From assembly GCA_020852815.1 (NCBI GenBank), contig JADZAN010000015.1, positions 1-64,000 of the forward strand: a stretch of DNA of 64,000 bases. The letters are read 5' to 3'. The stretch comes from Gemmatimonadaceae bacterium. Lineage in GTDB: Bacteria; Gemmatimonadota; Gemmatimonadetes; Gemmatimonadales; Gemmatimonadaceae. Every line of letters begins with the position of its first letter. The stretch's first letter is position 1. Position numbers and translations under genes: made by a program. Below the pieces are notes generated by a model, which made no database searches, was not told the origin of the DNA, and saw only the letters and a list, made by a program, of their open reading frames with translations. Below, piece after piece: positions 13,280 to 62,481 of this stretch.

Positions 13280-14974
13280 TTACGGCACGACCTTCGTCAC
13301 CCTGAACGGATCCCGCACCGGATCGTTGGCCGGCGCCAGCTTCCGCGAGTTCTGCACCATCCGCTCCACCTCGGCCATCAGCTTGTCATTGTTCACCACC
13401 ACGCCGTCCTTGATAGTGTGCACGATCCCCTTCGTGCGGTACATCTTGCCGTCCTTGTCGAGCGTGAGGTCGCCGAAGGAGTACATGAACTTGAGGTTCG
13501 CCGCGGGGTTGCCGTCGACCAGGAGGAGGTCGGCCTTGTAGCCGGGGCGCACGAGGCCGAGCGAGGGTTCGAGCAGCGTCTGCGCCGAGTTCCAGGTTGC
13601 GGTCTTGAGCACCTCGAGGTTGTGCATGCCGGTCTCGCGCTGCAGTTGCAGCTCACGGATCGACGAGAAGCCCGGCGTCGCCCAGATGTAGTTGTCGTCG
13701 GTGCCGAACGCCACGCGCCCGCCACGCTTGTTGAACTCGTAGATCAGGTCCCCCCACAGCCGGAACGCCGTCGTCCAGTAGTACTCGTCGTCGCTCGTCC
13801 AGTCGTAGTGGAAGGCGCCGTGGAACGCCGGGTTCGGCATGTTCCAGTTCCACAGCGCCTGATGCGTGTACTTGTCCGTCCACGGAAGCGACGTCGCCCG
13901 CACCATGTCGCGGTTGGCCTCGTACACCACGCGCGTGGGAAGCATCGTCACGCCGCACTTCACGAGCGAGTCGGCCACCTCGTTCAGCAGGCGCTCCCGG
14001 TTCGTGTAGGTCCACACCTTCCCCGCTTCGCGGAAACGATCGTTCTCATTCCCGTAGTTGTAGTTGCGCGGGAAGTCCTGCGTCTTGTTGTCCAGCGCCG
14101 ACTCGGCGTAGCCGTAGTGGTGCTCGATCATCGTGATCCCCGCGCACGCCGCCTTCACCGCCTGCGTCACCGCCGTGTTGGACGGCTGCAGGTGGAACGA
14201 GGTGATCATCCCGTTCTCCTTCGCTGCCTTGGCGATCGCCGTGACCAGCTCCAGCGACCACCCTAACGGGTCCATCGAGATCACGCGGTTCCCGTTCGCC
14301 GCCATCGCCTTCACCACCTGCGGCGCCATGGCCGGGTCGTCCAGCTCGCGGCGCGAGAATCTCGTCCCGGCGCCGTAGCTCACCAGCGGGAACATCCGCG
14401 GCGCCACGATCTCATTGTTCGCGCTCTTCTTCGCCTCCGCCATGCCGTCGGCAAAGCCGCGATCGGCGGCGTTCACCATCGTTGTGACGCCCATCGCCAG
14501 CTTGAGGTAGTAGACGTACTCGATCTCCTCGGGCAGCGTACGGATGTGCGTGTGCAGGTCGATCATCCCGGGCATCACGTACTTCCCACCGGCCTCGATG
14601 ATCCGGTCGCCCGTCATCCGCTCGCCCGCACCGCGCCGCTCAGCTGCAACCGGGTCGAAGGGGACCATCTGCGTGATCATGTTCCCCTCGATCTTGATGT
14701 CGTACGGCCCGGTCGGCGGTCCACCGTGTCCGGGAATCACCATCGCGTTGCGGATCACGAGCGACTTGTACGGCCCCTCGGCCAAGTCGCCGAATTTCTT
14801 CGTGACGATCGCCGGCGCCGGCGCGGCCGCGGCCGTCGTCGTGGGGCGCTGTTGCGCCCCCGCGAGCGAGGCGAGGGATGGCGTCAGCAGCGCGGCAAGC
14901 GCCAGCGGCTGCGTGATGCGGGCTACGCGTGCAACGCGGGCATCGAGTGCAATGCGTGGAGTACGGAACGACAT
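13280..14974 (-). CDS. Secreted amidohydrolase, copy 3 (long form)
   Basis: A 564-residue exported metal-dependent hydrolase. The signal peptide spans about residues 1-42 (LALAALLTPSLASLAGAQQ). Metal motifs: GMIDLHTHI (HxH), SFHLQPS, IEHHYGY and FGTDDNYIW. The C-terminal module has LGLVRPGYKADLLLVDGNPAANL and IVHTIKDGVVVNN. It is about 100 residues longer than its neighbours, mainly between the third His and the catalytic Asp. The open frame extends to 15160, but ATG 14974 begins the signal peptide. It is divergent from the frameshifted copy at 15280. Substrate unknown; an amidase or imidase role is a family-level expectation. Confidence 0.9.
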   Translation of the reverse strand: MSFRTPRIALDARVARVARITQPLALAALLTPSLASLAGAQQRPTTTAAAAPAPAIVTKKFGDLAEGPYKSLVIRNAMVIPGHGGPPTGPYDIKIEGNMITQMVPFDPVAAERRGAGERMTGDRIIEAGGKYVMPGMIDLHTHIRTLPEEIEYVYYLKLAMGVTTMVNAADRGFADGMAEAKKSANNEIVAPRMFPLVSYGAGTRFSRRELDDPAMAPQVVKAMAANGNRVISMDPLGWSLELVTAIAKAAKENGMITSFHLQPSNTAVTQAVKAACAGITMIEHHYGYAESALDNKTQDFPRNYNYGNENDRFREAGKVWTYTNRERLLNEVADSLVKCGVTMLPTRVVYEANRDMVRATSLPWTDKYTHQALWNWNMPNPAFHGAFHYDWTSDDEYYWTTAFRLWGDLIYEFNKRGGRVAFGTDDNYIWATPGFSSIRELQLQRETGMHNLEVLKTATWNSAQTLLEPSLGLVRPGYKADLLLVDGNPAANLKFMYSFGDLTLDKDGKMYRTKGIVHTIKDGVVVNNDKLMAEVERMVQNSRKLAPANDPVRDPFRVTKVVP

Positions 14975-15190
14975 GGCGGTGTCAGATCGGGACGAATCGC
15001 GAAGGTGGCGTCCGCGAGGGACGACGACGGAAGTGGCTACGGTTCCAACGCGGGCGAGGAAGGGAGTGTTGGGGCCAACGGAATCAACGTCACTGAACGC
15101 TCTCCCATCCCGAGCCGTGGCGCGGGAAGAGAAGTGACGGAGCACCGGCGTTGGACGCAAGGACGTTCGACGTTAACGTTGCGCCCCAGA

Positions 15191-49401: not shown

Positions 49402-49956
49402 ATGCCGGTCGACCTTCACGCGCGCGCCCTGACGACATTTCACGCCATTCACGAGCACTCTCCCTCCCCAGTATCGGGTGGAGCGGGGAGGGCGCTGCAT
49501 GCCGTCGTCGCGTGGCGGCTGTGGGGGGGGCGTGCGCGTCACGGGGTCACGCTGCTCGAGTTGATGGTGGTGCTGGCGCTGCTCGCAGTCGTCGCCGCCT
49601 TCGCGCTCCCGGCGCTGGCCCCTCCCCCGCCACGCGGGGCGACCGTGGCCGACGCCGTTCGCGCGGCCCGAAGCGCCGCCGTGGCGCGGGGGCAGCTCCT
49701 CTCGCTTGCCGTCGACGCTGAGGGCGTGTGGGAGGTACGCGCGCTCCCCCCCGACGATTCGCTGCGCCTGACGGGAGGGGCGCTTCGCACGCCGCCGACG
49801 GCGCCCTTCCGGCTGCAACTCACCCCCCTCGGCGCCTGCGTCGCGGTGTCACGCCTCCCCGCCGAGTTGGCGGGATGGGATGCCGCCGGGTGCACGGCGC
49901 CGGGCATCGCTGCGCAGGCAAACGCGCGTCGCCCGTTGCGCGAAGGAGGGAGATGA
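49402..49956 (+). CDS. gspH: Type II secretion minor pseudopilin GspH
   Basis: A 184-residue pseudopilin by the longest start. The prepilin peptidase site is in ARHG-VTLLELMVVLALLAVVAAF: Gly before Val and Glu at position 5 of the mature helix. The long 47-residue leader before it suggests the real start may be downstream; no ATG or GTG fits better in this frame (a CTG near 49495 has a GGAGCGGGGAGG site). The globular part is small and beta-rich. First gene of the secretion operon; its stop overlaps the ATG of gspI (ATGA). Confidence 0.85.
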   Translation: MPVDLHARALTTFHAIHEHSPSPVSGGAGRALHAVVAWRLWGGRARHGVTLLELMVVLALLAVVAAFALPALAPPPPRGATVADAVRAARSAAVARGQLLSLAVDAEGVWEVRALPPDDSLRLTGGALRTPPTAPFRLQLTPLGACVAVSRLPAELAGWDAAGCTAPGIAAQANARRPLREGGR

Positions 49957-50291
49957 CGCTCCTCGAGGCGCTGGTGGCGCTCGTGATCCTCGGGCTGTCG
50001 GCAGTGGGATACCTCGACGTATTCCGCACCTCCAGCGGCGCGGTGCGCGACGCCGAGGAGTGGGGACGCATCGTGGCGATTGCCGAGTCGGCGATGGAGG
50101 GGGCAACGCTGGGCGATGCGTTGCAGGCGGATCGTGGGAGCGTGTCGCCGCTCGATCGGGGCGACGGATACCAGGAGCGCATCGCGGTGCAGCCGTGGAG
50201 TCCCGGCGTCTCGCAGGTCGTGGTCACCGTGACGTCGCCGCGCGGGACGACCTTCACGCTGCGTCGGCTGGCGCGGGAGCGTCGCCCGTGA
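49953..50291 (+). CDS. gspI: Type II secretion minor pseudopilin GspI, with no visible leader
   Basis: A 112-residue protein. It begins MTLLEALVALVILGLSAVGY: the conserved TLLE with Glu at position 5 is right at the initiator Met, so there is no leader with the Gly needed for prepilin peptidase. GAAGGAGGGAG just before ATG 49953 supports that start. The upstream codons in frame (ARRREMTLLE) also lack Gly. Either cleavage is not needed here or the start lies elsewhere. The rest matches GspI (EEWGRIVAIAESAMEG). It overlaps gspH and gspJ by 4 bases each. Confidence 0.85.
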   Translation: MTLLEALVALVILGLSAVGYLDVFRTSSGAVRDAEEWGRIVAIAESAMEGATLGDALQADRGSVSPLDRGDGYQERIAVQPWSPGVSQVVVTVTSPRGTTFTLRRLARERRP

Positions 50292-51010
50292 CACGTCGTC
50301 GCTGCCGAGCGTTTGGCGGCTCGCGCACCGTGCGGGCAACGCGCGGCACGCGAGCTACGCGGGCCACCCGCGGCTTGCGCGCCGCCTTCACGCTGCTCGA
50401 GGTGATGGTCGCGCTGGTGGTGAGCGGGTTGGTGGTGACGCTGGCGTACGCCACCACGCAGGCGGGCTTCGACACCGAGTTGCGCCTGGGCGAGCATCGC
50501 GATGGTACGGAGCGGGTCATGGCAGTCCGCGCCCTGCTGGGCGATGCGCTGCGCCACCAGGAGGAGGGGCTGCGGGGGGGCGACGTGGTCTTCGCCCTCG
50601 CCGACCGCGTGGCAGATGACGGGAGCGCTGCCGACTCGCTGGCCTTTCTCTCGCGCGGCATCGCGGCGCCCTATGGGACGGGGGTGGCGTGGCGCGTGGC
50701 ACTCTGGCGTTCGCACGACACGCTGCGCGTCGAAGCGCGTCCCACCGAAATGCGCGACGCCGGGCGGCGCGACCCCACGGCGCGCGACGCCTACCCCACG
50801 GCGAGCGACGCCGCCGTCCCGCTCTCGGCCTCGCTTGCCGGGGTCACGGGGGTGGATGTGCAGGCGCTGGGACGTGGGGTGACCGCCGCGTGGCGCTCGC
50901 AGTGGCCGGAGGGCGACGTGGCCCCGGACGCCGTGGCCCTGGTGGTGCAGCGCGCCGGCGCACCGTCGTTGCAGCTGCTGACCCGTCGCGGCCTGGAGCG
51001 TGCCCCGTGA
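50288..51010 (+). CDS. gspJ: Type II secretion minor pseudopilin GspJ
   Basis: A 240-residue pseudopilin starting at GTG 50288 (GTGA overlap with gspI). The leader of about 34 residues contains the repeat RATRGTRATRATRG. The cleavage region is GLRAA-FTLLEVMVALVVSG, with Ala instead of Gly before the Phe. The globular domain is beta-rich (GDVVFALADRVADDG, LWRSHDTLRVEARP). It is expected at the pseudopilus tip with GspI and GspK. Confidence 0.86.
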   Translation: MTRRRCRAFGGSRTVRATRGTRATRATRGLRAAFTLLEVMVALVVSGLVVTLAYATTQAGFDTELRLGEHRDGTERVMAVRALLGDALRHQEEGLRGGDVVFALADRVADDGSAADSLAFLSRGIAAPYGTGVAWRVALWRSHDTLRVEARPTEMRDAGRRDPTARDAYPTASDAAVPLSASLAGVTGVDVQALGRGVTAAWRSQWPEGDVAPDAVALVVQRAGAPSLQLLTRRGLERAP

Positions 51011-51774
51011 CCGCGCCGCCGCCAGTTGCAACGCTCGCCCGCCGGCGCGGGGTAGCGCTCGTCCTCGTCCTCTGGCTCCTCGTCATCCTCGGCGCCATCG
51101 GCGCGTCCGTGGTCGCCAGCACGCGCGACAGTTCGCGCCTCACCGCCAACGCGCGCGCCCGCGTGGTGGCCCGCTACGCCGCCGAGAGCGGGATCGAGGC
51201 CACCCTCGCCGCGATCGACGACTCGCTCGCCGTCCTCACCGACAGCGTTGCGCGGCGCGCCTTCCTCAATGCGCTGGAACCGTCCAACCGCGCCGACGCG
51301 GTCACGCTGGGCGACGCGCGCTTTGCCGTGGCCATTGTCGACGCCAGCGCGCGGCTGGACGTGAACGCTGCCCCCGAGGAGCGGCTGGCACGGCTCTTCT
51401 CGCGCCTGGGCGGCGCGCCGCGCGGCGAGGCGCTGGCCCGCGCCATTCGCACCTGGATCGAGCGCGACGGCCGCACCGTGCACCCGATTCGCTCGCTGGA
51501 GGAGCTGCGCACCATTCCCGGGGCGGACGACGAGCTGTTGCAACTGGCGGCGCCCTTTCTCACCGTCGACGGCGACGGGACGATCAACCGCGCCGCGGCC
51601 AGCGCCGAGGTGATGGACGCCGCGTTCGGCGACGTGCGTGACGCGCCATCTCGGTTGGTGGTCATCTCGCGGGGATGGCTGCACGGACACGCCATGACCC
51701 ACGAGATTCAGGGCGTGTACGCCATTGCCGCCGACCGTCTCGTCCTGGTGCACTGGCGGGAGCGTCCCCTGTGA
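51007..51774 (+). CDS. gspK: Type II secretion pseudopilin GspK
   Basis: A 255-residue protein from GTG 51007 (GTGA overlap with gspJ). RRRG-VALVLVLWLLVILGAIGASVV is the leader and helix; GspK normally lacks the Glu at position 5, as here. The GspK-specific alpha domain features RLDVNAAPEERLARL and SLEELRTIPGADDELLQLA. It is thought to cap the pseudopilus tip. The next gene is 31 bases downstream. Confidence 0.9.
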   Translation: MTAPPPVATLARRRGVALVLVLWLLVILGAIGASVVASTRDSSRLTANARARVVARYAAESGIEATLAAIDDSLAVLTDSVARRAFLNALEPSNRADAVTLGDARFAVAIVDASARLDVNAAPEERLARLFSRLGGAPRGEALARAIRTWIERDGRTVHPIRSLEELRTIPGADDELLQLAAPFLTVDGDGTINRAAASAEVMDAAFGDVRDAPSRLVVISRGWLHGHAMTHEIQGVYAIAADRLVLVHWRERPL

Positions 51775-51805
51775 TCCGCATCACGACCACCGCGAGCCAT
51801 TGTCT

Positions 51806-52972
51806 GTGAGCCCACGCGTTGCCCTCGAGCTGACCCCCGAGCACCTCCGCGCCGTCGTGGCGTCGGGGTGGCGCGACGTGGCGCTGCGCACCGTGGAGGT
51901 CGCGTGGAACCCCGCCGAGCCCGATGGCGCCATCGCGCGGCTGCGCGAACAGGTGGGGAGTGTCGATGCCATTGCGGTCGCCGTGGGGCTCGGCTTCCTG
52001 CACGTGAAGCGGGTGGAACTCCCGCCGGCGCCGCACGCCGATCGCGAGCGGATCCTCGCGCTGGAGGGCGATCGCTTCTTTGCCGCCAGCGCCCCGGTGA
52101 CCGTCGCCCTTGCACCTGGCGGAACGGTGGCGTTCGCCGTCGATGCCGATGCGCTGGAGCGGTGGACCCTCGCGGTGGAGCGCTGGGCGCCGGTGGTGCG
52201 CGTGGACGCCGCGCCGGTGGCGCTGGCGCGGGCGCTGGCGCACGGCGGCGCGACCATCGCGGGCGACTTCGCGCTCGACGCGGGAGCGGGGGAACATGGG
52301 GTGGTGACGCTGCGTGGCGGCGAGTTGGTGTCGGCGCGCCGCATCCCGCGCGCCGCCGGTGTCCCGTCAGGCGCAACGCTTCCCCCCGGGGGCGCCGTGC
52401 CGGCCACGCACCTGGCGGCGTGGGGGGCGCTGCTGGGCGAGGACGAGGATGAGCGGGGAACGCTCGCGCCCACCGCGCGGCGGCGGCGCTTCGCGGCGCG
52501 GCGGCGGCGGCGCCTGGCCGTGGCGGTCGTGGCCGCGGTGGCCGGCCTCGCCTTCGCGCTCCTCGCGGCCGACCGGTGGCGCTCACGCACGCTGCAGGCG
52601 CTCGAGGCGGAGGTCGCGTCGCGGCGCGAGGCGGCGGCCCCCGGCGAGGCGGCGCTGGCGGCGCGCGCGCGCCTCGACCAGGAGGTCGCGATGCTCGGGC
52701 GCCTGGCCGCCAGCCGCAACGGCACCCTGGGGGCGCTCGCCGCCATCTCGGCCGCCCTCCCCGCCGACGCCGTCATCCAGGGGGCGCACGCCGTGGGACG
52801 CGACTGGGAGATCGACGGAACGGCGTCGAGCGCCGCCGCCCTCGTCCCCGCGCTCGACAAGGACGGACGCTTCGAGAACGTGCGCCTGCGCGCGGCCAGC
52901 TCGCGCTTCCGCGACGGCGCGCGCACGCGCGAGACCTTCTCCCTTGCCCTCCGTGTCCGTCCTGGCGCCTGA
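51806..52972 (+). CDS. gspL: Type II secretion GspL-like inner-membrane protein
   Basis: A 388-residue bitopic protein from GTG 51806. The N-terminal part (to about 240) is an actin-like PilM/GspL cytoplasmic fold (VAVGLGFLHVKRVELP; HADRERILALEGDRFF). Then an Arg-rich stretch and one transmembrane helix (LAVAVVAAVAGLAFALLAA, about 250), then a PilN-like periplasmic part (LEAEVASRREAAAP; LAAISAALPADAVI). GspL anchors the GspE ATPase to the membrane. Overlaps gspM by 20 bases. Confidence 0.82.
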   Translation: MSPRVALELTPEHLRAVVASGWRDVALRTVEVAWNPAEPDGAIARLREQVGSVDAIAVAVGLGFLHVKRVELPPAPHADRERILALEGDRFFAASAPVTVALAPGGTVAFAVDADALERWTLAVERWAPVVRVDAAPVALARALAHGGATIAGDFALDAGAGEHGVVTLRGGELVSARRIPRAAGVPSGATLPPGGAVPATHLAAWGALLGEDEDERGTLAPTARRRRFAARRRRRLAVAVVAAVAGLAFALLAADRWRSRTLQALEAEVASRREAAAPGEAALAARARLDQEVAMLGRLAASRNGTLGALAAISAALPADAVIQGAHAVGRDWEIDGTASSAAALVPALDKDGRFENVRLRAASSRFRDGARTRETFSLALRVRPGA

Positions 52973-53516
52973 CGCGCGCGAGCGCCGGACCATCGCCCTC
53001 GGGGGCGCGGTGCTCGCCATCGCCGCCTTCGTCACGATGGTCGTCCTCCCCACCGCCGCGCGCTGGCGCGACCGCGAGGCGATGATCGACGCCTTGCGGC
53101 GGCAGCGCGCGCAGCTCGTCGCGTTAGGCGCGCAGCGCGGCGCGCTGGAGGCGGCGGTGCAGCTGCGGTCGCAGCAGGCCGGAGCGCTCCCCGTGCGCCT
53201 GGTGCGCGGACGCACCCCGGCGCTCGCCGCGTCGGCGCTGCAGGCGCTGCTGCAGGAGTACGCCTCGGCCTCCCGCGTGAGCGTGACGCGCCTCGACGTC
53301 GCCAGCACGCCCGACTCCGGCGCCACCCCCGCCATCCCCGCGCTGGTCTCGGCGGTGAGCGACGTGTACGGCCTCGCCGACTTCCTGTCGCGGCTGGAGC
53401 ATGGCGGGGAATGGGTGGAAGTGACCGAGCTATCGGTATCGCCCAACCCGTCGCTGCGCGGCGAGTTGTTGCAGCTGTCGGTGGCGATTCGCGCCCCGTT
53501 CGTCCTCGAGCCATGA
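52953..53516 (+). CDS. gspM: Type II secretion GspM-like protein
   Basis: A 187-residue bitopic protein from GTG 52953, inside the end of gspL. One transmembrane helix (IALGGAVLAIAAFVTMVVLP) is followed by a coiled segment (REAMIDALRRQRAQLVALGAQRGALEAA) and a small ferredoxin-like periplasmic domain (LASALQALLQEYASASRV; VYGLADFLSRLEHGGEWVEVTELSV). It is expected to bind GspL and, through it, GspE. Confidence 0.84.
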   Translation: MSVLAPDARERRTIALGGAVLAIAAFVTMVVLPTAARWRDREAMIDALRRQRAQLVALGAQRGALEAAVQLRSQQAGALPVRLVRGRTPALAASALQALLQEYASASRVSVTRLDVASTPDSGATPAIPALVSAVSDVYGLADFLSRLEHGGEWVEVTELSVSPNPSLRGELLQLSVAIRAPFVLEP

Positions 53517-53529
53517 CGGGAGACCGCTG

Positions 53530-54057
53530 ATGCGCCGACGCCGTGCCACACTCTTCGCCGTGGCCGCTCTCGGGGCGGTGCTGGGGGGGATCTTCCTCGT
53601 CCTCCCGCCCGCCGTGGGCAACGACGCCGCGCCCCCCCTCCTCGCCGGTGACAGCACGCCGGCGCTCCCCACCCTCGCCCCCGGCAATCCCGCGCTGGCC
53701 GAGGATGTGGTGATCGCCAACGTCTTCTCCCCGCGGCGCTCCCCGCCCACGTCACGCTACTCGCCCCCCGACGCTGCCATGGACTCGTCAGGCGGCGTGG
53801 TGGCCGACACGGCCGCGATGGGCGTCCCTCCGCAGGGTGCGACCGGTGAACCGCAGCTGCTCGGGACGGTGGTCGGCGCCCGCGGGACGCAGGCGTTGTT
53901 GCAGCTGGACCCGCTCGGCGGAAGCGCCCGGTTGTACTCGGTGGGCGACCGCGAGGGCGGATATCGCGTGATCTCCATTGCCCCGGGCTCGGTCGTGCTG
54001 GCCGGTCCGCAGGGGCGCTTGACGTTGCGACTCGTCTCCCCGGAGGACCGCCCGTGA
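53530..54057 (+). CDS. gspC: GspC-like clamp protein with an HR-type domain
   Basis: A 175-residue protein. One N-terminal membrane helix (LFAVAALGAVLGGIFLVLPP), a Pro-rich linker, and a C-terminal domain like the GspC homology region (QLLGTVVGARGTQALLQLDP, ARLYSVGDREGGYRVISIAPGSVVL). In canonical systems GspC links the inner-membrane platform to the GspD secretin. There is no PDZ or coiled-coil extension, so it is a short form. GGGAGA 6 bases before ATG 53530 supports the start. Confidence 0.78.
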   Translation: MRRRRATLFAVAALGAVLGGIFLVLPPAVGNDAAPPLLAGDSTPALPTLAPGNPALAEDVVIANVFSPRRSPPTSRYSPPDAAMDSSGGVVADTAAMGVPPQGATGEPQLLGTVVGARGTQALLQLDPLGGSARLYSVGDREGGYRVISIAPGSVVLAGPQGRLTLRLVSPEDRP

Positions 54058-55916
54058 GGCGTTCCCACCATGTGGTACCAGACCGTCTCCATCGCGCGCG
54101 GCGCGGAGCGCGGCGCACGCTGACGCTCGGCGCGCTGACGCTCTGCACACCGAGGTTTGGCGCGCTGCTCGGTGCGGCGCTGGCAGCGGTCCCCTCGGCG
54201 CTCGCCGCCCAACAAGGCGCAGCCGCTGGCACGCGGCTCGACTTTCGCGATGCCCCGTTAGGCGACGTGATCCGGTCGCTGGCCGCGGCCATGGGACTCA
54301 CGGCGGTCACCTCCGAGGTTCCGGCCGACGCGCGCATCACCTTCTCCACGCCGGCACCCGTGCCGCCAGGTGAACTGGGCGCACTGCTGGAGGGGATTCT
54401 CGAGTCCAAGGGACTCGTTGCCGTGGTGCGGGGGAGCGTGGCGCAGGTGTATCCCGCCGACAAGGCGCCGAAAACCGGGCAGGTGCGCACGGGACTCGAC
54501 TTCCCCGATCCGCCCCCGTTCGGCCTCGTCACGCAGCTCGTCCCGTTGCAGGGAATTCGCGCCGACGAGGGGGCCACGGCGCTTCGGCAGGTGGCCGGTC
54601 CCGGGGCGAGCATCGAAGCGGTGCCGCGGTCCAACGCGCTCCTCATCACCGACCGCGGCGCCAACGTCGCGCGCTTCCTGGATCTCCTGCGCCGGCTGGA
54701 CGAGAAGCCGCAGGGCGAGGCGGGGCTGCGGACCTACGTGGTGAACCTCAAGTATGCCAACGCCGACGACCTCGCCGAGTCGTTAGGTCAGCTGTTCGGG
54801 GTGACGGTGTCGCGCTCGGGGCGCCGTTCGCTGGACGATCTCGCCCTCTCGCGCACGCTGGAGTCGTTCCGCCAGCGCGAAGGCGATGCCTTCCGGATGC
54901 GGCGCGACGTCCCGCTGTCCGTCCCGCTGTCGGCGCCGGCCGCCTCCGCCGCCGGCGCGGCACCCAGCGACAGCGCCATGCCCGGAACGCCGGGGGCGCT
55001 CACCGGGCAGACCACGGTGGTCCCGCACGGGCCCTCCAACTCGCTCCTCATCCGTACCAGTCCCCCAAACTTCCCGCTGCTGCAGGAGACGATCCAGGCG
55101 CTGGATGCGCGGCCGGCGCAGGTGCTGCTCGAGGTCACCGTGGCCGAGGTGACGTTAGGCACGGGCGACCAGTTCGGCGTGGACTGGCGCAGCGTGGGGG
55201 GGAGCACCGACATCTCGTCCGGCAACCCCGACGCCGCCGACTCCAGCTCGCTCCGCGACTTCGCCGTGCGCGTGGTGACGCTGCGCAACGCCAACGTGCG
55301 CGCCATCCTGCGGGCACTCTCCACGCGTTCGCAGGTGCGCGTCCTCTCCACGCCGTCCATCCTCGCGGTGAACAACCGCGAGTCGCGTATCCTGGTGGGG
55401 AGCCGCGTCCCCTTCATCGCGTCGACGCGGCTGGGCAACGATGTCGCCATCGATCGCACCGTGCAGTTCGAGGACGTCGGGACGCAGCTGACGATCATCC
55501 CGACCATCAACGACGACGACTACGTGAGCGTGCAGATCCTGCAGGAGGTCAGCACCCTCACGTCGCAGACGATCCAGTCGGCGCTCAACGCCCCCGTCAT
55601 CTCCACGCGCGAGGCGACGACGCGCACGGTGATTCGCGACGGGCAGACGGTCGTGATCGCGGGGCTCATCGGCGACAACCGCGAAGTGATCGAGAGCGGC
55701 GTCCCCCTCCTCAAGGACATCCCGCTCCTGGGCGCCTTCTTCAAGCGGCGCACCACCAGCCGCAACCGCAGCGAGGTCGCCATCTTCGTGACGCCGTTCA
55801 TCGTGCGCTCCGACGCCGACGCCGACACCATCCGCGAACGTGTGCGCGGGCGGATCAACGGCGCGCAGCCGGGGGCGCTCGACTCGCTGTCCAACCTGCC
55901 GAAGAAGAAGCCGTGA
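54054..55916 (+). CDS. gspD: Type II secretion secretin GspD
   Basis: A 620-residue outer-membrane secretin from GTG 54054 (GTGA overlap with gspC). After a signal sequence come an N0 domain (LDFRDAPLGDVIRSLAAAMG), then N1 and N2 modules (YVVNLKYANADDLAESLGQLFG; GPSNSLLIRTSPPNFPLLQETIQAL) and the secretin core with VRVLSTPSILAVNNRESRI, GTQLTIIPTINDDDYVSVQI and the C-terminal GVPLLKDIPLLGAFFKRRT. The outer-membrane pore for folded substrates. Confidence 0.94.
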   Translation: MRRSHHVVPDRLHRARRGARRTLTLGALTLCTPRFGALLGAALAAVPSALAAQQGAAAGTRLDFRDAPLGDVIRSLAAAMGLTAVTSEVPADARITFSTPAPVPPGELGALLEGILESKGLVAVVRGSVAQVYPADKAPKTGQVRTGLDFPDPPPFGLVTQLVPLQGIRADEGATALRQVAGPGASIEAVPRSNALLITDRGANVARFLDLLRRLDEKPQGEAGLRTYVVNLKYANADDLAESLGQLFGVTVSRSGRRSLDDLALSRTLESFRQREGDAFRMRRDVPLSVPLSAPAASAAGAAPSDSAMPGTPGALTGQTTVVPHGPSNSLLIRTSPPNFPLLQETIQALDARPAQVLLEVTVAEVTLGTGDQFGVDWRSVGGSTDISSGNPDAADSSSLRDFAVRVVTLRNANVRAILRALSTRSQVRVLSTPSILAVNNRESRILVGSRVPFIASTRLGNDVAIDRTVQFEDVGTQLTIIPTINDDDYVSVQILQEVSTLTSQTIQSALNAPVISTREATTRTVIRDGQTVVIAGLIGDNREVIESGVPLLKDIPLLGAFFKRRTTSRNRSEVAIFVTPFIVRSDADADTIRERVRGRINGAQPGALDSLSNLPKKKP

Positions 55917-57538
55917 ACGGCGCCCGGGAGACGGGGGACGGGGGACGGGAGATGGTGACGGCGGAGGCGCTGCGCGTCGCCGCCATGGGCGAGCTCGCAT
56001 CACGCCTTCCACCGGCATATCTCGAGGAGCATGCGCTGGTGCCGCTCGAGGTTGCGGCTGACGGTGCGCTCGTCGTCGCCGCGGGGCGTACGCCCGACGT
56101 CACGGTCACCGACGAACTGGCGCGGCTCTTTGCCCGCGCGGTTCGCGTGGTCGAGGCGCCGCCCTCCGATGTGCAGGCCGCGCTGCTGGGGGCGCGGCGG
56201 GAGACGATCGAGGGAGCAGGCGCCGGCGACGGCGTTGCGGCTGGCGACGCCGGGCTCGGCGACCTGCGCGCGCAGGCCAACGACGCCCCGGTGGTCCAGC
56301 TGGTGAACGCCCTCCTCGGCGACGCGCTGCAGCGCGGGGCAAGCGACGTCCACCTCGAATGCACGCGCGGCGGGTTGCGCCTGCGGTTGCGGCTGGACGG
56401 CGTCCTGCGCGAGGTGGCCACGTACCCCGCCGCGCTGCAAGGCGGCGTGATGTCGCGCCTCAAGCTGCTGGCCGGGCTCGACATCGCCGAGCGGCGACTG
56501 CCGCAGGATGGGCGCGCCCGCGTGAAGCTCGGGTCCCGCGAGGTCGACCTGCGCGCCTCGACACTCCCGGCGCTGCACGGCGAGAGCCTGGTGCTGCGCG
56601 TCCTGGACCAGGGGACGAGTGCCGGCGGCGTCCGCGACCTGGGAGCGCTCGGGATGCCGCCGGCGCTGCGCGTCGCCTTCGAACCGCTCGTCCTGCGATC
56701 GTCGGGACTCATCCTGGTTACCGGCCCCACGGGCTCGGGAAAGACCACGACGCTCTACGCAGCGCTCGCCAGGCGCAACGAGCCCGGGGTGAAGATCGTG
56801 ACCGTCGAGGACCCGGTGGAGTACCAGGTCGCCGGCGTCACGCAGGTCCCCGTGAACCGCAAGGCGGGGCTTGGCTTTGCCAACGTGCTGCGGTCGATCC
56901 TGCGTCACGACCCGGACATCGTGATGGTGGGCGAGCTGCGCGATCGCGAGACCGCCGAGATGGCGGTGCAGGCGGCGCTCACCGGCCACCTCGTCCTCAC
57001 CACGCTGCACACCAACGACGCCCCCGGCGCCATCACGCGCCTCATCGACATGGGAATCGAGCCGTATCTCGTGGCCGCGACCGTGCACGGTGTCCTGGCG
57101 CAGCGGCTGGTGCGCATCACCTGTCCGGCGTGCGCGCAACCCATTGCACCTGGCGATGCCTCGCTCGCCGGGCTCGGTGGCCCCCACCTGCGCAATTCCG
57201 CAACGACGCACGCCCGCCGCGGCGCCGGCTGCGACGCCTGCGGCGGGACCGGCTATCGCGGTCGCACCGGGATCTACGAGCTGTACGTCCCCGACGATCG
57301 CGACCGCCGCTTCATTGCCAGCCATGGGACCATCGACGAGATGCGCCCCGCCGGCCGGAGCTTCTGCGCCCCGTCGCTGCGCGAATCGGCGGCCATGCTG
57401 GTGCACGCCGGCGTGACGACCCCCGAGGAGGTGCGCCGGGTCCTGAGCCTCGAGGACGCCCCGACGCACGACGGCATGCCATCGTTTGTCCGCCGTGAAC
57501 TGCCCGGCCATCGCGCCACCGCGGAGGGCGACGCGTGA
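55913..57538 (+). CDS. gspE: Type II secretion ATPase GspE
   Basis: A 541-residue cytoplasmic traffic ATPase from GTG 55913 (GTGA overlap with gspD). N-terminal GspE/PilB domain, NALLGDALQRGASDVHLE, Walker A GPTGSGKTTT, Asp box TVEDPVEYQVAGVTQV, Walker B DIVMVGELRDRETAE and His box TTLHTNDAPGAITRL. A zinc motif CPACAQ...CDACGG lies at about 400-440. The C terminus is longer than usual, with extra sequence after GRTGIYELY (PAGRSFCAPSLRE). Confidence 0.95.
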   Translation: MNGARETGDGGREMVTAEALRVAAMGELASRLPPAYLEEHALVPLEVAADGALVVAAGRTPDVTVTDELARLFARAVRVVEAPPSDVQAALLGARRETIEGAGAGDGVAAGDAGLGDLRAQANDAPVVQLVNALLGDALQRGASDVHLECTRGGLRLRLRLDGVLREVATYPAALQGGVMSRLKLLAGLDIAERRLPQDGRARVKLGSREVDLRASTLPALHGESLVLRVLDQGTSAGGVRDLGALGMPPALRVAFEPLVLRSSGLILVTGPTGSGKTTTLYAALARRNEPGVKIVTVEDPVEYQVAGVTQVPVNRKAGLGFANVLRSILRHDPDIVMVGELRDRETAEMAVQAALTGHLVLTTLHTNDAPGAITRLIDMGIEPYLVAATVHGVLAQRLVRITCPACAQPIAPGDASLAGLGGPHLRNSATTHARRGAGCDACGGTGYRGRTGIYELYVPDDRDRRFIASHGTIDEMRPAGRSFCAPSLRESAAMLVHAGVTTPEEVRRVLSLEDAPTHDGMPSFVRRELPGHRATAEGDA

Positions 57539-58749
57539 GCCTCTCTTTCCGCTATCGCGCCGCCACCCCCGCCGGGGAGGTGGTCGAGGGGGTGGTGCAG
57601 GCCGACACGCCGCGGGGCGCGATGGACGAGCTGCGGCGACAGACGCTCGTCCCCGTCGATGTCGCGCCCATTGCATCTGACGGAAGCGGCTCGGCGACGC
57701 TGCCGCACTGGCTCGACCGTCGGCGCCGTGATGCCGCGCTGGCCACCGCCGCGCGCACCCTGGCCTCCATGCTTGCCGGTGGCGCCACCCTCGACCGCGC
57801 GCTGCGGTTCGCCGCCGACCACGCGCTGAGCACCGAAGTGGGGAGCGCCCTCAGCGCCGTGCGCAACGACGTGCAGCGCGGCGAGACGCTGGCCAACGCG
57901 CTGCGCGCGCACCAGGACGTCTTCGGGTCGCTCGCCCCCGCCGTGGTGCGCGCCGGCGAGGAGAGCGGGACGCTCGACCAATCACTGGCACGATACGCCG
58001 ATCACGTGGAACGCGCGCGCGACCTGCGCGCGCAACTGCGTGCCACGCTCCTCTACCCCGCCCTGATGGGCGTCGTGGCCGGCGTGGGCATCGTCGTCCT
58101 CCTCACCTTCGTCGTCCCGCGCTTCGTCGCGATCCTCAACGACACCGGCGGGACACTCCCGCTCTCCACACGCCTCCTCATGGCCACCAGCGCCGCCGCC
58201 GTGCGCTGGTGGTGGGCGTGGCTGGCGTTAGGCGCCGTGGTGTTGGTGGGAGGGCGCGCCTGGCTCGCGGCCGCCGCCAACCGCGAACGATGGCACGCTG
58301 CACGCCTCGCGTTGCCTGTGGTGGGGACACTCGAACGCGCGGTGGCCACGGCGCGCTTCTCACGCACCTTCGGGACGCTGCTGCAGGGCGGGGCCCCGCT
58401 GCTGACCGCGTTGCGCGTGGGGCGCGAGGCGGTCGACAACCTCGCACTGGGCGCGGCACTGGAACGCTCGGAGCGCGCCGTGGCGCGCGGCGAACCGGTG
58501 GCCGGGTCGCTGGGGCCGGCACTCCCACCGCTCGCCACGCAGCTCTTCGCCGTTGGAGAGGAGAGCGGCTCGCTCGACGTCATGGCGCTGCGCGTGGCCG
58601 ACACCTTCGACGCCGAATCGCAGCGCACGCTCCGCTCGCTCGTCGCGCTCATCGAACCGCTCCTCATCGTCGCCTTCGGCGCCATGGTGGGATTCGTCGC
58701 CCTCGCCATGCTCCAGGCGATCTACTCGATCAACGCCTCCGCGTTATGA
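57535..58749 (+). CDS. gspF: Type II secretion inner-membrane platform GspF
   Basis: A 404-residue polytopic protein from GTG 57535 (GTGA overlap with gspE). Two cytoplasmic GspF domains: LASMLAGGATLDRALRFAADH (about 80) and RTFGTLLQGGAPLLTALRVGRE (about 285), each followed by a GEESG segment and helices (LLYPALMGVVAGVGIVVLLTFVVPRF; LIVAFGAMVGFVALAMLQAIYSI). Family signature VVRAGEESGTLDQSLARYADHVE is intact. Platform for pseudopilus assembly. Confidence 0.94.
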   Translation: MSLSFRYRAATPAGEVVEGVVQADTPRGAMDELRRQTLVPVDVAPIASDGSGSATLPHWLDRRRRDAALATAARTLASMLAGGATLDRALRFAADHALSTEVGSALSAVRNDVQRGETLANALRAHQDVFGSLAPAVVRAGEESGTLDQSLARYADHVERARDLRAQLRATLLYPALMGVVAGVGIVVLLTFVVPRFVAILNDTGGTLPLSTRLLMATSAAAVRWWWAWLALGAVVLVGGRAWLAAAANRERWHAARLALPVVGTLERAVATARFSRTFGTLLQGGAPLLTALRVGREAVDNLALGAALERSERAVARGEPVAGSLGPALPPLATQLFAVGEESGSLDVMALRVADTFDAESQRTLRSLVALIEPLLIVAFGAMVGFVALAMLQAIYSINASAL

Positions 58750-59219
58750 TCATTCGCATGCGCACTCGCTCGCGCCACCATCGACGTCCGCGCGGCTCGC
58801 GCGGCTCGCGCGGCTTCACGCTGCTCGAGCTCCTCGTCGTGATCATCGTGCTCGCGCTCCTGGCCGGGCTGGTGGCGCCGCAGATCTTCGGGCGCGTGGG
58901 CGAGGCCAAAACGACCACGGCGCGCACGCAGATGGCGCTGCTCGCGACGGCGCTCGACAGCTACCGGCTCGACAACGGCGCGTATCCGTCGAGCGAGCAG
59001 GGGCTGACCGCGTTGCGCGTGAAGCCGACGCGCGAACCCATCCCCGCCAACTGGAAGGGGCCGTACCTTCGCAAGGATGTCCCGCTCGATCCGTGGGATC
59101 GTCCCTACGCCTACCGCTCGCCTGGCGTGCGCAACGCGAACGGGTTCGATCTCATGACGCTGGGGAAGGATGGGAAGGAGGGGGGCGCGGGCGAGGATGC
59201 CGACCTCATCGGCCAGTGA
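58746..59219 (+). CDS. gspG: Type II secretion major pseudopilin GspG
   Basis: A 157-residue pseudopilin starting ATG 58746 (ATGA overlap with gspF). The leader is basic with a 9-base in-frame repeat (RGSRGSRG), then cleavage Gly and FTLLELLVVIIVLALLAGLV. The globular part carries the GspG signature YRLDNGAYPSSEQGLTAL, WKGPYLRKDVPLDPWDRPYAYRSPG and a C-terminal loop DGKEGGAGEDAD, which could bind calcium. It is the last gene of the operon, unlike the usual order in which gspG precedes gspH. Confidence 0.93.
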   Translation: MIIRMRTRSRHHRRPRGSRGSRGFTLLELLVVIIVLALLAGLVAPQIFGRVGEAKTTTARTQMALLATALDSYRLDNGAYPSSEQGLTALRVKPTREPIPANWKGPYLRKDVPLDPWDRPYAYRSPGVRNANGFDLMTLGKDGKEGGAGEDADLIGQ

Positions 59220-59438: not shown

Positions 59439-61094
59439 ATGCGCCACACCGTGACGGAGCGGGAAGACGGAAACCTGGAGCAGCCGACGGGCGAATGGGC
59501 CGACGCGCTGGACGCGGCCGCCGAGTCGGCAGACGGCGCAGGCGTTAGGCAGGACGAGCGCCCGTCGCGGCGTCGCTTCTTTGCGCTCGGAGTGTCGATG
59601 GCGGCCGCGTCGATGGCGAGCACCGGTGCCGCCGCCGCGCAGCAGGGAACCAAGCCATCGGCCACGCGCACGATGGTCAAGCGACTGTTGCAGCAGCCGC
59701 CCAATCCCACCTTCGACCCGTTCGGGAAGAACACGCCGCCCACGCAGAAGGGGTGGGACTCCGCGCTCACGCGCCTCGTGCGCCGCGTGACCAACGGCGT
59801 CACCGAGGAGGAGCTGAAGCTGGCGCGGAAGCTCGGCTTCGTCGGCTATCTCAACTACCACCTGGCGTACGCAAAGGTCGACGACGCCGTCGCCCAGAAC
59901 TTCGTTGCCCAGAACTATCCCTATCTCGGGCAGACCGTCGACCAGCTGTACAACCTCGACCAGGGGATGCTGCAGAACCAGCTGACCGAGGCGACGCTGT
60001 ACCGGGCCGCCTTCTCCAAGCGCCAGCTCTACGAGCGCATGGTCGAGTTCTGGAGCGACCACTTCAACATCTCGTTCTCGCAGGTCAACTACCTCAAGCT
60101 GGTGGACGACAAGGAAGTCATCCGCCGCCACGCGTTAGGCAAGTTCCCCGACTTGCTCAAGGCGAGCGCGCACTCGCCGGCCATGCTGGAGTACCTCGAC
60201 AACACCCGCAACCGCCAGCGGACGCTCAACGAGAACTACGCGCGCGAGATCATGGAGCTCCACACGCTCGGCGTCGACGGCGGCTACACGCAGGTCGACG
60301 TGCGCGAGCTGGCGCGTGTGCTCACCGGGTGGACGCTCAACGGGCGTGGGACCTTTGCCTTCGACGCCTCGGGGCACGACTTCAGCGCGAAGACGGTCAT
60401 GGGGCAGGTGCTCCCGGCAATGCCGTCGAGCGCCGGCGCCGCCGCCAAGAGCGAAGGCGACCAGATGCTCGACTTCCTGGTGAAGCACCCGAGCACCGCG
60501 AAATTCATCGCGAAGAAGATGCTGCGCTTCCTGCTGGCGTACGACCCCACGGCGGCGCAAGTCACCGCGGTGGCAGCGGTCTACACGCGCACGCAGGGCG
60601 ACATCCCGTCGATGGTGCGCGCCGTGCTCACGCCGGCGAACGTTGCAGCTGCGGCGCCCAAGCTCAAGCGGCCGTACACCTTCCTCCTCTCCGCCCTGCG
60701 CGCGGTGAATCCGGTGGTGAGTGGGGTGACCGCGCCGCGCCGCGCCCTCACGACGCTCGGGCAGCCGATGTTCATGTGGGATCCGCCCGATGGCTATCCC
60801 GATCACGCCGACTACTGGGCGGGAGGCGTGCAACAGCGCTGGAACTACGCCGTCACCCTCGCCAACCTCGGCACGTCGGGCGAGATGACGCTCGACATTG
60901 CGCGCTTCAACGGCACCAATACGCACGACGCCATCATCGCCGCCATCGACAAGGCCGCCTTCGGTGGCGAGATGCCGGAGCGCCTCAAGGCGCAGCTCCT
61001 CGCCTACGTCAAGGTGCAGGCGACGCCGTCCGTACAGCGCGTGCGCGAGACGCTCTCGCTCGCGCTGAGTTCCTCGACCTTCCAGTGGATCTGA
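59439..61094 (+). CDS. DUF1800 family protein (Tat exported)
   Basis: A 551-residue protein with an acidic N-terminal part and a Tat-type signal SRRRFFALGVSMAAASMASTG (twin Arg about residue 44). The DUF1800 core follows: LYERMVEFWSDHFNIS, LLKASAHSPAMLEYLDNTRN, NENYAREIMELHTLGVDGGYTQVDV (family signature) and KFIAKKMLRFLLAY. ATG 59439 has AGGGGAG a few bases upstream. Function is unknown; the next gene is a DUF1501 protein, the standard genetic partner of DUF1800 across several phyla. Confidence 0.92.
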   Translation: MRHTVTEREDGNLEQPTGEWADALDAAAESADGAGVRQDERPSRRRFFALGVSMAAASMASTGAAAAQQGTKPSATRTMVKRLLQQPPNPTFDPFGKNTPPTQKGWDSALTRLVRRVTNGVTEEELKLARKLGFVGYLNYHLAYAKVDDAVAQNFVAQNYPYLGQTVDQLYNLDQGMLQNQLTEATLYRAAFSKRQLYERMVEFWSDHFNISFSQVNYLKLVDDKEVIRRHALGKFPDLLKASAHSPAMLEYLDNTRNRQRTLNENYAREIMELHTLGVDGGYTQVDVRELARVLTGWTLNGRGTFAFDASGHDFSAKTVMGQVLPAMPSSAGAAAKSEGDQMLDFLVKHPSTAKFIAKKMLRFLLAYDPTAAQVTAVAAVYTRTQGDIPSMVRAVLTPANVAAAAPKLKRPYTFLLSALRAVNPVVSGVTAPRRALTTLGQPMFMWDPPDGYPDHADYWAGGVQQRWNYAVTLANLGTSGEMTLDIARFNGTNTHDAIIAAIDKAAFGGEMPERLKAQLLAYVKVQATPSVQRVRETLSLALSSSTFQWI

Positions 61095-61167: not shown

Positions 61168-62481
61168 ATGAGCCACGACCTGCACGACGACTGCGCGTGC
61201 ACCGAATACAACGAACTCGTCAGCCGGCGTGATTTTCTCGGGACCGCCGGCGGAATGTCGGGAGCTGCACTGTATGCCTGGGCCTATCCCGAGTGGCTCC
61301 CCAAGGTCTCGTTTGCCGATTCGTTCGCCAGCGAGCGTGATGTCATCGTCTCCGTCTTCCTGCGCGGCGGCGCCGACGGCCTCTCGTTATGCGCGCCGTT
61401 CGGCGACCCGCTCTACTACACGGGGCGCCCCACCATCGCCATCCCGCGCCCGGACTCCTCCTCGACTGCCACGCGCGGCATCGCCCTGGACAACTTCTTC
61501 GCCTTCCCGCAGGCGATGCGCTTCCTGGTCCCAGCCTATCAGGCAGGGAACCTCCTCGTGGTGCACGGCGCCGGGCTCACATACAACACGCGCTCCCACT
61601 TCGACGCCCAGCACTACATGGAAGTCGGAAAGGCCAACGACGTGAGCGTGAACACGGGATGGCTCGGGCGACATCTCGCGACCACCTCGCCCATGAAGAA
61701 CGGCGCGGCGCTCCGCGGCATCGGCATCTCCGATGGCCTCGTCGATACGCTGAAGGGCGGCCCGCTCACCGTGCCGATGACGGATCCCGCCAACTACGGC
61801 ATCTCCGGGAGCAGCTCGACGCGCAACGAGCGCACCTCGTGGCTCCAGGCCGAGTACACCGACTCGCTCGAGCCGGCAAAGTCCGCGGCGCTCAACGCCA
61901 TCGCCACGATCAACCTCCTCCGCTCGCTCAACATCTCCGGCTACGCACCGGCTAACGGTGCGGTGTATCCCAACACCGGTCTGGCGCGCGGCCTCCGCTC
62001 CTCGGCGGCGCTCATCAAGGCCGATATCGGCGTGGAGGCGATCCACCTCGACATCGGCGGCTGGGACACGCACACCGACCAGAACCCGCTCACCGGCGGG
62101 ATGGCGACGACAATGACGCAGCTGTCGCAGGCGTTAGGCGCCTTCTGGCAGGATTGCATCTCATCCGGGCTTGCGCAGAACGTCTCCGTCGTCGTCCTCT
62201 CCGAGTTCGGGCGCAACGTACGCGAGAACGGGGGGCGCGGCACCGACCACGGGCGCGGCACCGCGATGTTCGCCATGGGGCGCGGCATTCGCGGCGGGCG
62301 CGTCCTCACCAACAACTGGAAGTCGCTCGACCAGGCCAACCTCGTCGACAAGCAGGACCTCCCGGTCACCGTCGACTACCGCGACATCCTTGGCGAGATC
62401 ATCCAGAACCGACTCGGCAACGCCAACCTCGGCACGGTGTTCCCGGGCTACGTGCCGTCGTTCAGGGGGGTAACGCAGTAG
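61168..62481 (+). CDS. DUF1501 family protein (Tat exported)
   Basis: A 437-residue protein starting ATG 61168 with a Tat signal NELVSRRDFLGTAGGMSGAAL. The DUF1501 fold belongs to the alkaline-phosphatase-like superfamily. VFLRGGADGLSLCAPFGDPLYY, LDIGGWDTHTDQNPLTGGM and VVVLSEFGRNVRENGGRGTDHGRGTAMFAMG contain the family's His, Asp and Asn residues. DUF1800/DUF1501 pairs are often linked to cell-surface or exported systems; their role is unknown. 73 bases separate it from the DUF1800 gene. Confidence 0.92.
   Translation: MSHDLHDDCACTEYNELVSRRDFLGTAGGMSGAALYAWAYPEWLPKVSFADSFASERDVIVSVFLRGGADGLSLCAPFGDPLYYTGRPTIAIPRPDSSSTATRGIALDNFFAFPQAMRFLVPAYQAGNLLVVHGAGLTYNTRSHFDAQHYMEVGKANDVSVNTGWLGRHLATTSPMKNGAALRGIGISDGLVDTLKGGPLTVPMTDPANYGISGSSSTRNERTSWLQAEYTDSLEPAKSAALNAIATINLLRSLNISGYAPANGAVYPNTGLARGLRSSAALIKADIGVEAIHLDIGGWDTHTDQNPLTGGMATTMTQLSQALGAFWQDCISSGLAQNVSVVVLSEFGRNVRENGGRGTDHGRGTAMFAMGRGIRGGRVLTNNWKSLDQANLVDKQDLPVTVDYRDILGEIIQNRLGNANLGTVFPGYVPSFRGVTQ

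Follow-up and report, generated by a model that had tools for sequence, protein, structure and literature searches.

The DNA analyzed here, hereafter the window, is a stretch of 64,000 nucleotides from the genome of a Gemmatimonadaceae bacterium (GenBank assembly GCA_020852815.1, contig JADZAN010000015.1, positions 1 to 64,000). Between positions 49402 and 59219 it carries an operon of eleven genes for a type II secretion system (T2SS), all on the forward strand and in the order H-I-J-K-L-M-C-D-E-F-G. In the following, we describe this gene order and a second feature of the operon, a minor pseudopilin, GspI, that appears to be made without a leader peptide. The genes are listed below; in the motifs, a slash precedes mature residue +1.

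49402-49956, forward strand: gspH, minor pseudopilin of uncertain start; PF07963 (N_methyl) match and GspH matches under cut-off; cleavage motif HG/VTLLELMVV
49953-50291, forward strand: gspI, putatively leaderless minor pseudopilin; ATG 49953 is mature residue +1; GspI profile match and EpsI fold match
50288-51010, forward strand: gspJ, minor pseudopilin, leader retained, A at -1; sub-cut-off matches and the sequence RGLRAA/FTLLEVMVAL
51007-51774, forward strand: gspK, tip pseudopilin without Glu5, leader retained; NCBIfam GspK 2.1e-15, under cut-off; RRG/VALVLVLWLLV
about 51800-52972, forward strand: gspL, start at TTG 51800 or GTG 51806; C-terminal PilN domain over cut-off, and position
52953-53516, forward strand: gspM; NCBIfam NF040576, 61.4 bits (cut-off 60)
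53530-54057, forward strand: gspC; GspC_delta (1.6e-6) and XpsN (0.026), both under cut-off; M-D position in relatives
54054-55916, forward strand: gspD, secretin; PF00263 (2.9e-44); best NCBIfam match TIGR02517 (6.8e-98)
55913-57538, forward strand: gspE, assembly ATPase; PF00437 (3.8e-123); best NCBIfam match TIGR02533 (2.3e-153), under the equivalog cut-off
57535-58749, forward strand: gspF, platform protein; PF00482 (1.1e-48)
58746-59219, forward strand: gspG, major pseudopilin, sole copy in the genome; TIGR01710, 171.8 bits (cut-off 88.85), and PF08334 over cut-off

The names of gspD, gspE, gspF, gspG and gspM are firm by profile cut-offs, gspL is named via its PilN domain, and gspC, gspH, gspI, gspJ and gspK are named from sub-cut-off matches together with position. 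In GspD, both PF00263 and PF03958 score over their cut-offs, TIGR02517 reaches 328.7 bits against a cut-off of 351.35, and the N0 domain is weak. Counted from the ATG at 49402, the gspH leader has 47 residues (49402-49545), with no nearer ATG, GTG or TTG, and translation may in fact begin at an unusual codon. The secretin GspD, the major pseudopilin GspG, GspE with GspF, the GspC/L/M connector and, elsewhere in the genome, a prepilin peptidase are all present. Judged by gene content, the operon is predicted to be a complete T2SS, of a lineage specific to Gemmatimonadota.

The initial annotation had reported this gene order together with seven ATGA or GTGA overlaps, and both are borne out by the coordinates and junctions: 4-base overlaps join H-I (ATGA), I-J (GTGA), J-K (GTGA), C-D (GTGA), D-E (GTGA), E-F (GTGA) and F-G (ATGA), and the remaining junctions are a 25-base gap (K-L), a 20-base overlap (L-M) and a 13-base gap (M-C). 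It had also called the prepilin peptidase gene gspO absent, which is right for the operon but not for the genome, where a single two-domain copy (PF01478 and PF06750, A24_N) lies on another contig (G000:C46:72611-73234). Type IV pilus-type ATPases are likewise encoded elsewhere. The 5.38-Mb assembly (47 contigs, completeness 100) contains no second gspG, so the order in the window is real and not merely apparent. Scans for promoters and terminators returned nothing above chance.

Related systems were sought across the phylum, and 50 of 150 sampled genomes gave a GspG match; their loci (20 kb at most) were annotated using profiles built on the proteins of the window. In a concatenated D+E+F tree, all Gemmatimonadota T2SSs form one clade (100*). 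A second D+E+F tree, with the outgroup set by hand, contains 34 rows of a lineage I and 23 rows of a lineage II. The loci relevant to gspI belong to one subclade of lineage I, in which 29 loci, the window included, have a readable gspI.

In the window, the ATG of gspI at 49953 is itself the codon of mature residue +1 (RRRE/MTLLEALVAL); it lies within the 4-base overlap with the gspH stop, with AAGGAGG just upstream. All 29 loci have ATG or GTG at +1, in the residue pattern M/V-T/S-L/I-L-E. Upstream of it, 15 loci have no ATG, GTG or TTG after the last in-frame stop, and in 10 an in-frame stop lies just 1-6 codons away. The residue that would occupy position -1 in the gspI frame varies freely (A, L, P, T, Q, V, E, S, K or R) and is G in only three of the 29. 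By contrast, gspH, gspJ, gspK and gspG of the same loci still have a start upstream and either G or A in position -1, with K readable in only part of them; in the gspJ genes of the clade (50288-51010 in the window, and relatives), we observed Ala in place of Gly at -1 in six of the 29 read. Control matches behave in the ordinary way: an upstream start is present in all 316 pseudopilin matches from other phyla and in all 165 from other Gemmatimonadota, bar one wrong motif match, and GspI has G or A at -1 in 58 of 58 cases from other phyla and 34 of 35 from other Gemmatimonadota. The exception in the latter set (L067) was dismissed as a wrong motif match, and an apparently leaderless GspG (L246) as a gene truncated where the retrieved stretch ends.

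Two of the 29 loci (L230 and L231) fall outside the family. In the sister subclade, where the order is J-I-K, GspI leaders are ordinary; the leader was therefore apparently lost on the branch in which gspI directly follows gspH. The gspH stop can be placed in 25 loci and overlaps gspI by four bases in 20 of them. This contact between the two reading frames might suggest programmed frameshifting that joins both genes into one H-I protein. However, the other five (L196, L200, L201, L215 and L220) keep the +1 start with the gspH stop 6-31 bases upstream of it, and it is hard to see how the N-terminal helix of a pilin would pack within such a fusion, which makes this the most far-fetched of the explanations we considered.

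That the gene product is GspI is supported by its remaining sequence and its predicted fold. A profile of the 29 proteins without their first 24 residues matches GspI from other phyla (78%, E 1.7e-5); it matches none of GspJ, GspH and GspG. The model of the window protein is a pilin, with a helix at residues 3-53 followed by strands (mean pLDDT 86.6). When the Foldseek candidates were aligned with VIA-align, EpsI came first (2ret_A, Z 9.5, rmsd 2.4, 80 aligned), followed by the XcpGHIJK filament model (9a1f_R, Z 8.5, rmsd 3.0, 102 aligned).

Given the strong divergence of GspI between genera, one might regard it as a degenerating, dispensable protein whose leader loss has no functional meaning. 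Yet Glu5 and the hydrophobic N-terminus are retained in 29 of 29 proteins, and at least six close pairs give dN/dS values of 0.14-0.24, wider pairs having been excluded as near saturation. In close pairs, gspI is thus under purifying selection, and degeneration appears quite improbable.

Three observations speak against a functional, leaderless GspI. In 14 of the 29 loci, including the window, a standard in-frame start (ATG, GTG or TTG) does exist upstream, the residue at -1 there being mostly neither G nor A. With T or S as residue 2, Met1 could be stripped by methionine aminopeptidase, which would move Glu5 to position 4. Lastly, a Foldseek search of the GspI model against the PDB gave no match with E <0.001. 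The first of these, together with CTG or ATC codons upstream of gspI in some loci, would fit a plain rotated T2SS whose GspI has an ordinary leader, initiated at an unusual codon or at the upstream start. This explanation has to contend with the 10 loci in which a stop stands within six codons of +1 and with a variable -1 position that contrasts with the G or A kept in J, H, K and G; we consider it improbable, if somewhat less so than degeneration. The leaderless GspI is unexpected, and at the DNA level it is well supported.

How might such a protein be used? Ribosomes finishing gspH could re-initiate on gspI (termination-reinitiation at NTGA), which would couple the synthesis of GspI to that of GspH. 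GspI would then insert with its N-terminus inside and its C-terminus outside without a basic leader, keeping Glu5, and, being independent of the prepilin peptidase, would at once be ready to prime the tip complex with GspJ and GspK; a priming role of GspI-J-K in the pseudopilus has been proposed for other systems (review PMC4471445). The leaders of J and K would still have to be cut before this step, and maturation of H, J, K and G would fall to the one two-domain peptidase, whose gene lies outside the operon. To us, the chances seem evenly balanced that this is a T2SS clade without leader processing of GspI, in which GspI is made in its mature form, and tip priming needs no peptidase action on it and is tied, through the overlap, to translation of gspH.

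Turning to the gene order, the arrangement HIJKLMCDEFG of the window recurs in L074, L075, L191, L199, L230 and L231. HIJKLMCDEF, with gspG elsewhere or off the fetched stretch, is found in the loci of genus g4 and in Gemmatirosa kalamazoonensis (G078). In the latter (loci L056 and L196), a genome of the family to which the window belongs, these genes lie on a chromosome-size contig and the sole gspG match on a 1.04-Mb plasmid, a stretch of which is 100% identical to NZ_CP007130.1. Other arrangements are HJIKLMCDEFG (L236), JIKLMCDEFG (L235), LMCDEF with inverted K, I and J and with G apart where seen (L048, L052, L058 and L238), EFG-LMCD with HIJK inverted (L232), EGFHIJKLMCD (about a dozen loci), GFHIJKLMCDE (nine loci) and EGF-LMCD-HIJK (L060). 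In L048, gspE occupies two reading frames (13884-15039), through a frameshift or an assembly error. L-M-(C)-D is never split in any readable locus. C-D is followed by E-F throughout lineage I, except in L232, and F and G are swapped in nearly all of lineage II.

These orders are built from three conserved modules: EFG for motor, platform and major pseudopilin, HIJK for the tip of the pseudopilus, and LMCD for the connector between inner and outer membrane. The systems nearest to the Gemmatimonadota clade have the order EFG-HIJK-LM(C)D, joining it with 83% in one tree. Read against this outgroup order, the window presents the same modules shuffled, with the EFG block at the tail and not at the head. 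The initial annotation had described the operon as an exact rotation of the standard list. While this is true with respect to C-D-E-F-G-H-I-J-K-L-M, the nearest relatives carry E-F-G-H-I-J-K-L-M-C-D, and the rotation is one outcome of shuffling. As the modules also occur in non-cyclic orders, and as half of all three-block orders are rotations, rotation is no special law. In the simplest reading, EFG was transferred from the head of the operon to its tail at the base of lineage I or close to it. Further moves occurred independently; in GFHIJKLMCDE, for instance, it was E that went to the tail.

Several lineages are exact rotations, with the cut before E, G or H, as would be expected if the whole operon had been duplicated in tandem and complementary halves then lost, a process that gives circular permutations only. 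The same clade, however, contains non-cyclic orders and inverted blocks (L060, L232 and L058), and an extra 'E' in L240, a candidate relic of gspE duplication, was rejected as a PilT-like ATPase. We regard this route as unlikely, though less so than any of the alternatives raised for GspI. Block movement in turn has its own difficulties: the trees come from a quick search and some of their deep joins are weakly supported, and no relic of a tandem duplication was found.

Beyond the phylum, we surveyed 80 named loci from one GspG-profile scan, picked by similarity. EFGHIJKLMCD occurs in Desulfobacteraceae, one Acidobacteria MAG and some Proteobacteria. Many Burkholderiales have GHIJKLM-x-DEF, and orders that begin with C or D occur in Nitrospinota, Nitrospirota and Gammaproteobacteria; a cut before H was seen in none of these 80 loci outside Gemmatimonadota. 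By the measure of the initial annotation, the order would be unremarkable if common in many phyla, and the other rotations found elsewhere go part of the way towards this; the exact cut before H is found only in Gemmatimonadota in this limited sample. The window order is real and arranges known modules in a new way, but its interest is modest.

Directly downstream of the operon lie two further genes:

59439-61094, forward strand: DUF1800 protein with the twin-arginine motif SRRRFFA, candidate cargo; PF08811 (2.7e-114); same place in 26 loci
61168-62481, forward strand: DUF1501 protein with the twin-arginine motif SRRDFLG, candidate cargo; PF07394 (1.9e-25)

A DUF1800 gene follows directly on the same strand in 26 lineage-I loci, with DUF1501 next wherever the stretch reaches that far; where gspG is gone, the pair comes after gspF. 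Nearly all DUF1800 and DUF1501 proteins of these loci have twin-arginine motifs, and the two may be cargo that passes from the twin-arginine translocation (Tat) pathway to the T2SS. Three further DUF1800 genes are present in the genome, so not every member of this family needs the T2SS of the window. Three lineage-II clusters (L057, L061 and L062) are flanked by the same pair, a pattern suggestive of an exchange of the secretion system next to constant neighbors. A DUF1800-DUF1501 operon is known beside bacterial chitin synthase genes, with a Tat motif on DUF1501 and a role described as unknown (PMC5122149). In a literature search that left out most subscription journals, we found no report linking DUF1800 or DUF1501 to a T2SS, nor any on leaderless pseudopilins or the T2SS of Gemmatimonas.

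Taken together, we consider it quite likely that the window encodes a complete T2SS whose order arose by module shuffling and whose GspI came to be made leaderless in one subclade, with the mechanism and cargo proposed above. The gene order indicates that EFG, HIJK and LMCD are the modules in which T2SS parts travel. It also indicates that the connector genes, LMCD, have preserved the order of the type IV pilus, which is broken in the textbook operon. The leaderless GspI outweighs this in importance, as bacterial type IV pilin-like proteins are described as invariably bearing a Gly-ended leader, which a dedicated peptidase cuts; outside archaea, the pilin leader comprises 6-26 residues and invariably ends in Gly (PMC4471445). 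If true, it would be a natural exception to this rule for bacterial pilin-like subunits and would indicate how far the leader serves membrane insertion and assembly. Since more than one genus has kept this state, Gemmatirosa kalamazoonensis among its bearers, it should be possible to test directly whether tip priming requires a leader, its cleavage and N-methylation.

Compared with known systems, the window operon has the same components as the textbook Gsp/Out/Eps T2SS, in the same order when read as a circle, whereas the textbook operon has C-D at its head, splitting LMCD, and a GspI with a Gly-ended leader. The Burkholderiales T2SS (G-H-I-J-K-L-M-x-D-E-F; L088, L099 and L118) is another rotation with D-E-F at its tail, but it is cut before G, its gspC is divergent where seen, and about 1.1 kb separates M from D, where gspN is expected. 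The LMCD order mirrors PilM/N-PilO-PilP-PilQ (pilMNOPQ) of the type IVa pilus machine, which, unlike the T2SS of the window, has a retraction ATPase. In the Xps system of Xanthomonas, all prepilins have a leader. Its gene order is E-F-G-H-I-J-K-L-M-C-D, with the peptidase encoded outside the cluster (PMC11981180). The window shares with it eleven components, L-M-C-D behind the pseudopilin genes, a GspC-like protein between M and D, a peptidase elsewhere and the contents of the modules; unlike Xps, which has EFG at the head and three predicted operons, it carries EFG on the same strand at the tail, after D. Finally, GspI of the clade resembles pilins with class III signal peptides (PMC4471445) in its hydrophobic stretch at the start, its Glu5 and its pilin fold, but differs from them in having neither the hydrophilic leader with Gly or Ala at -1 nor a conserved Gly-1.

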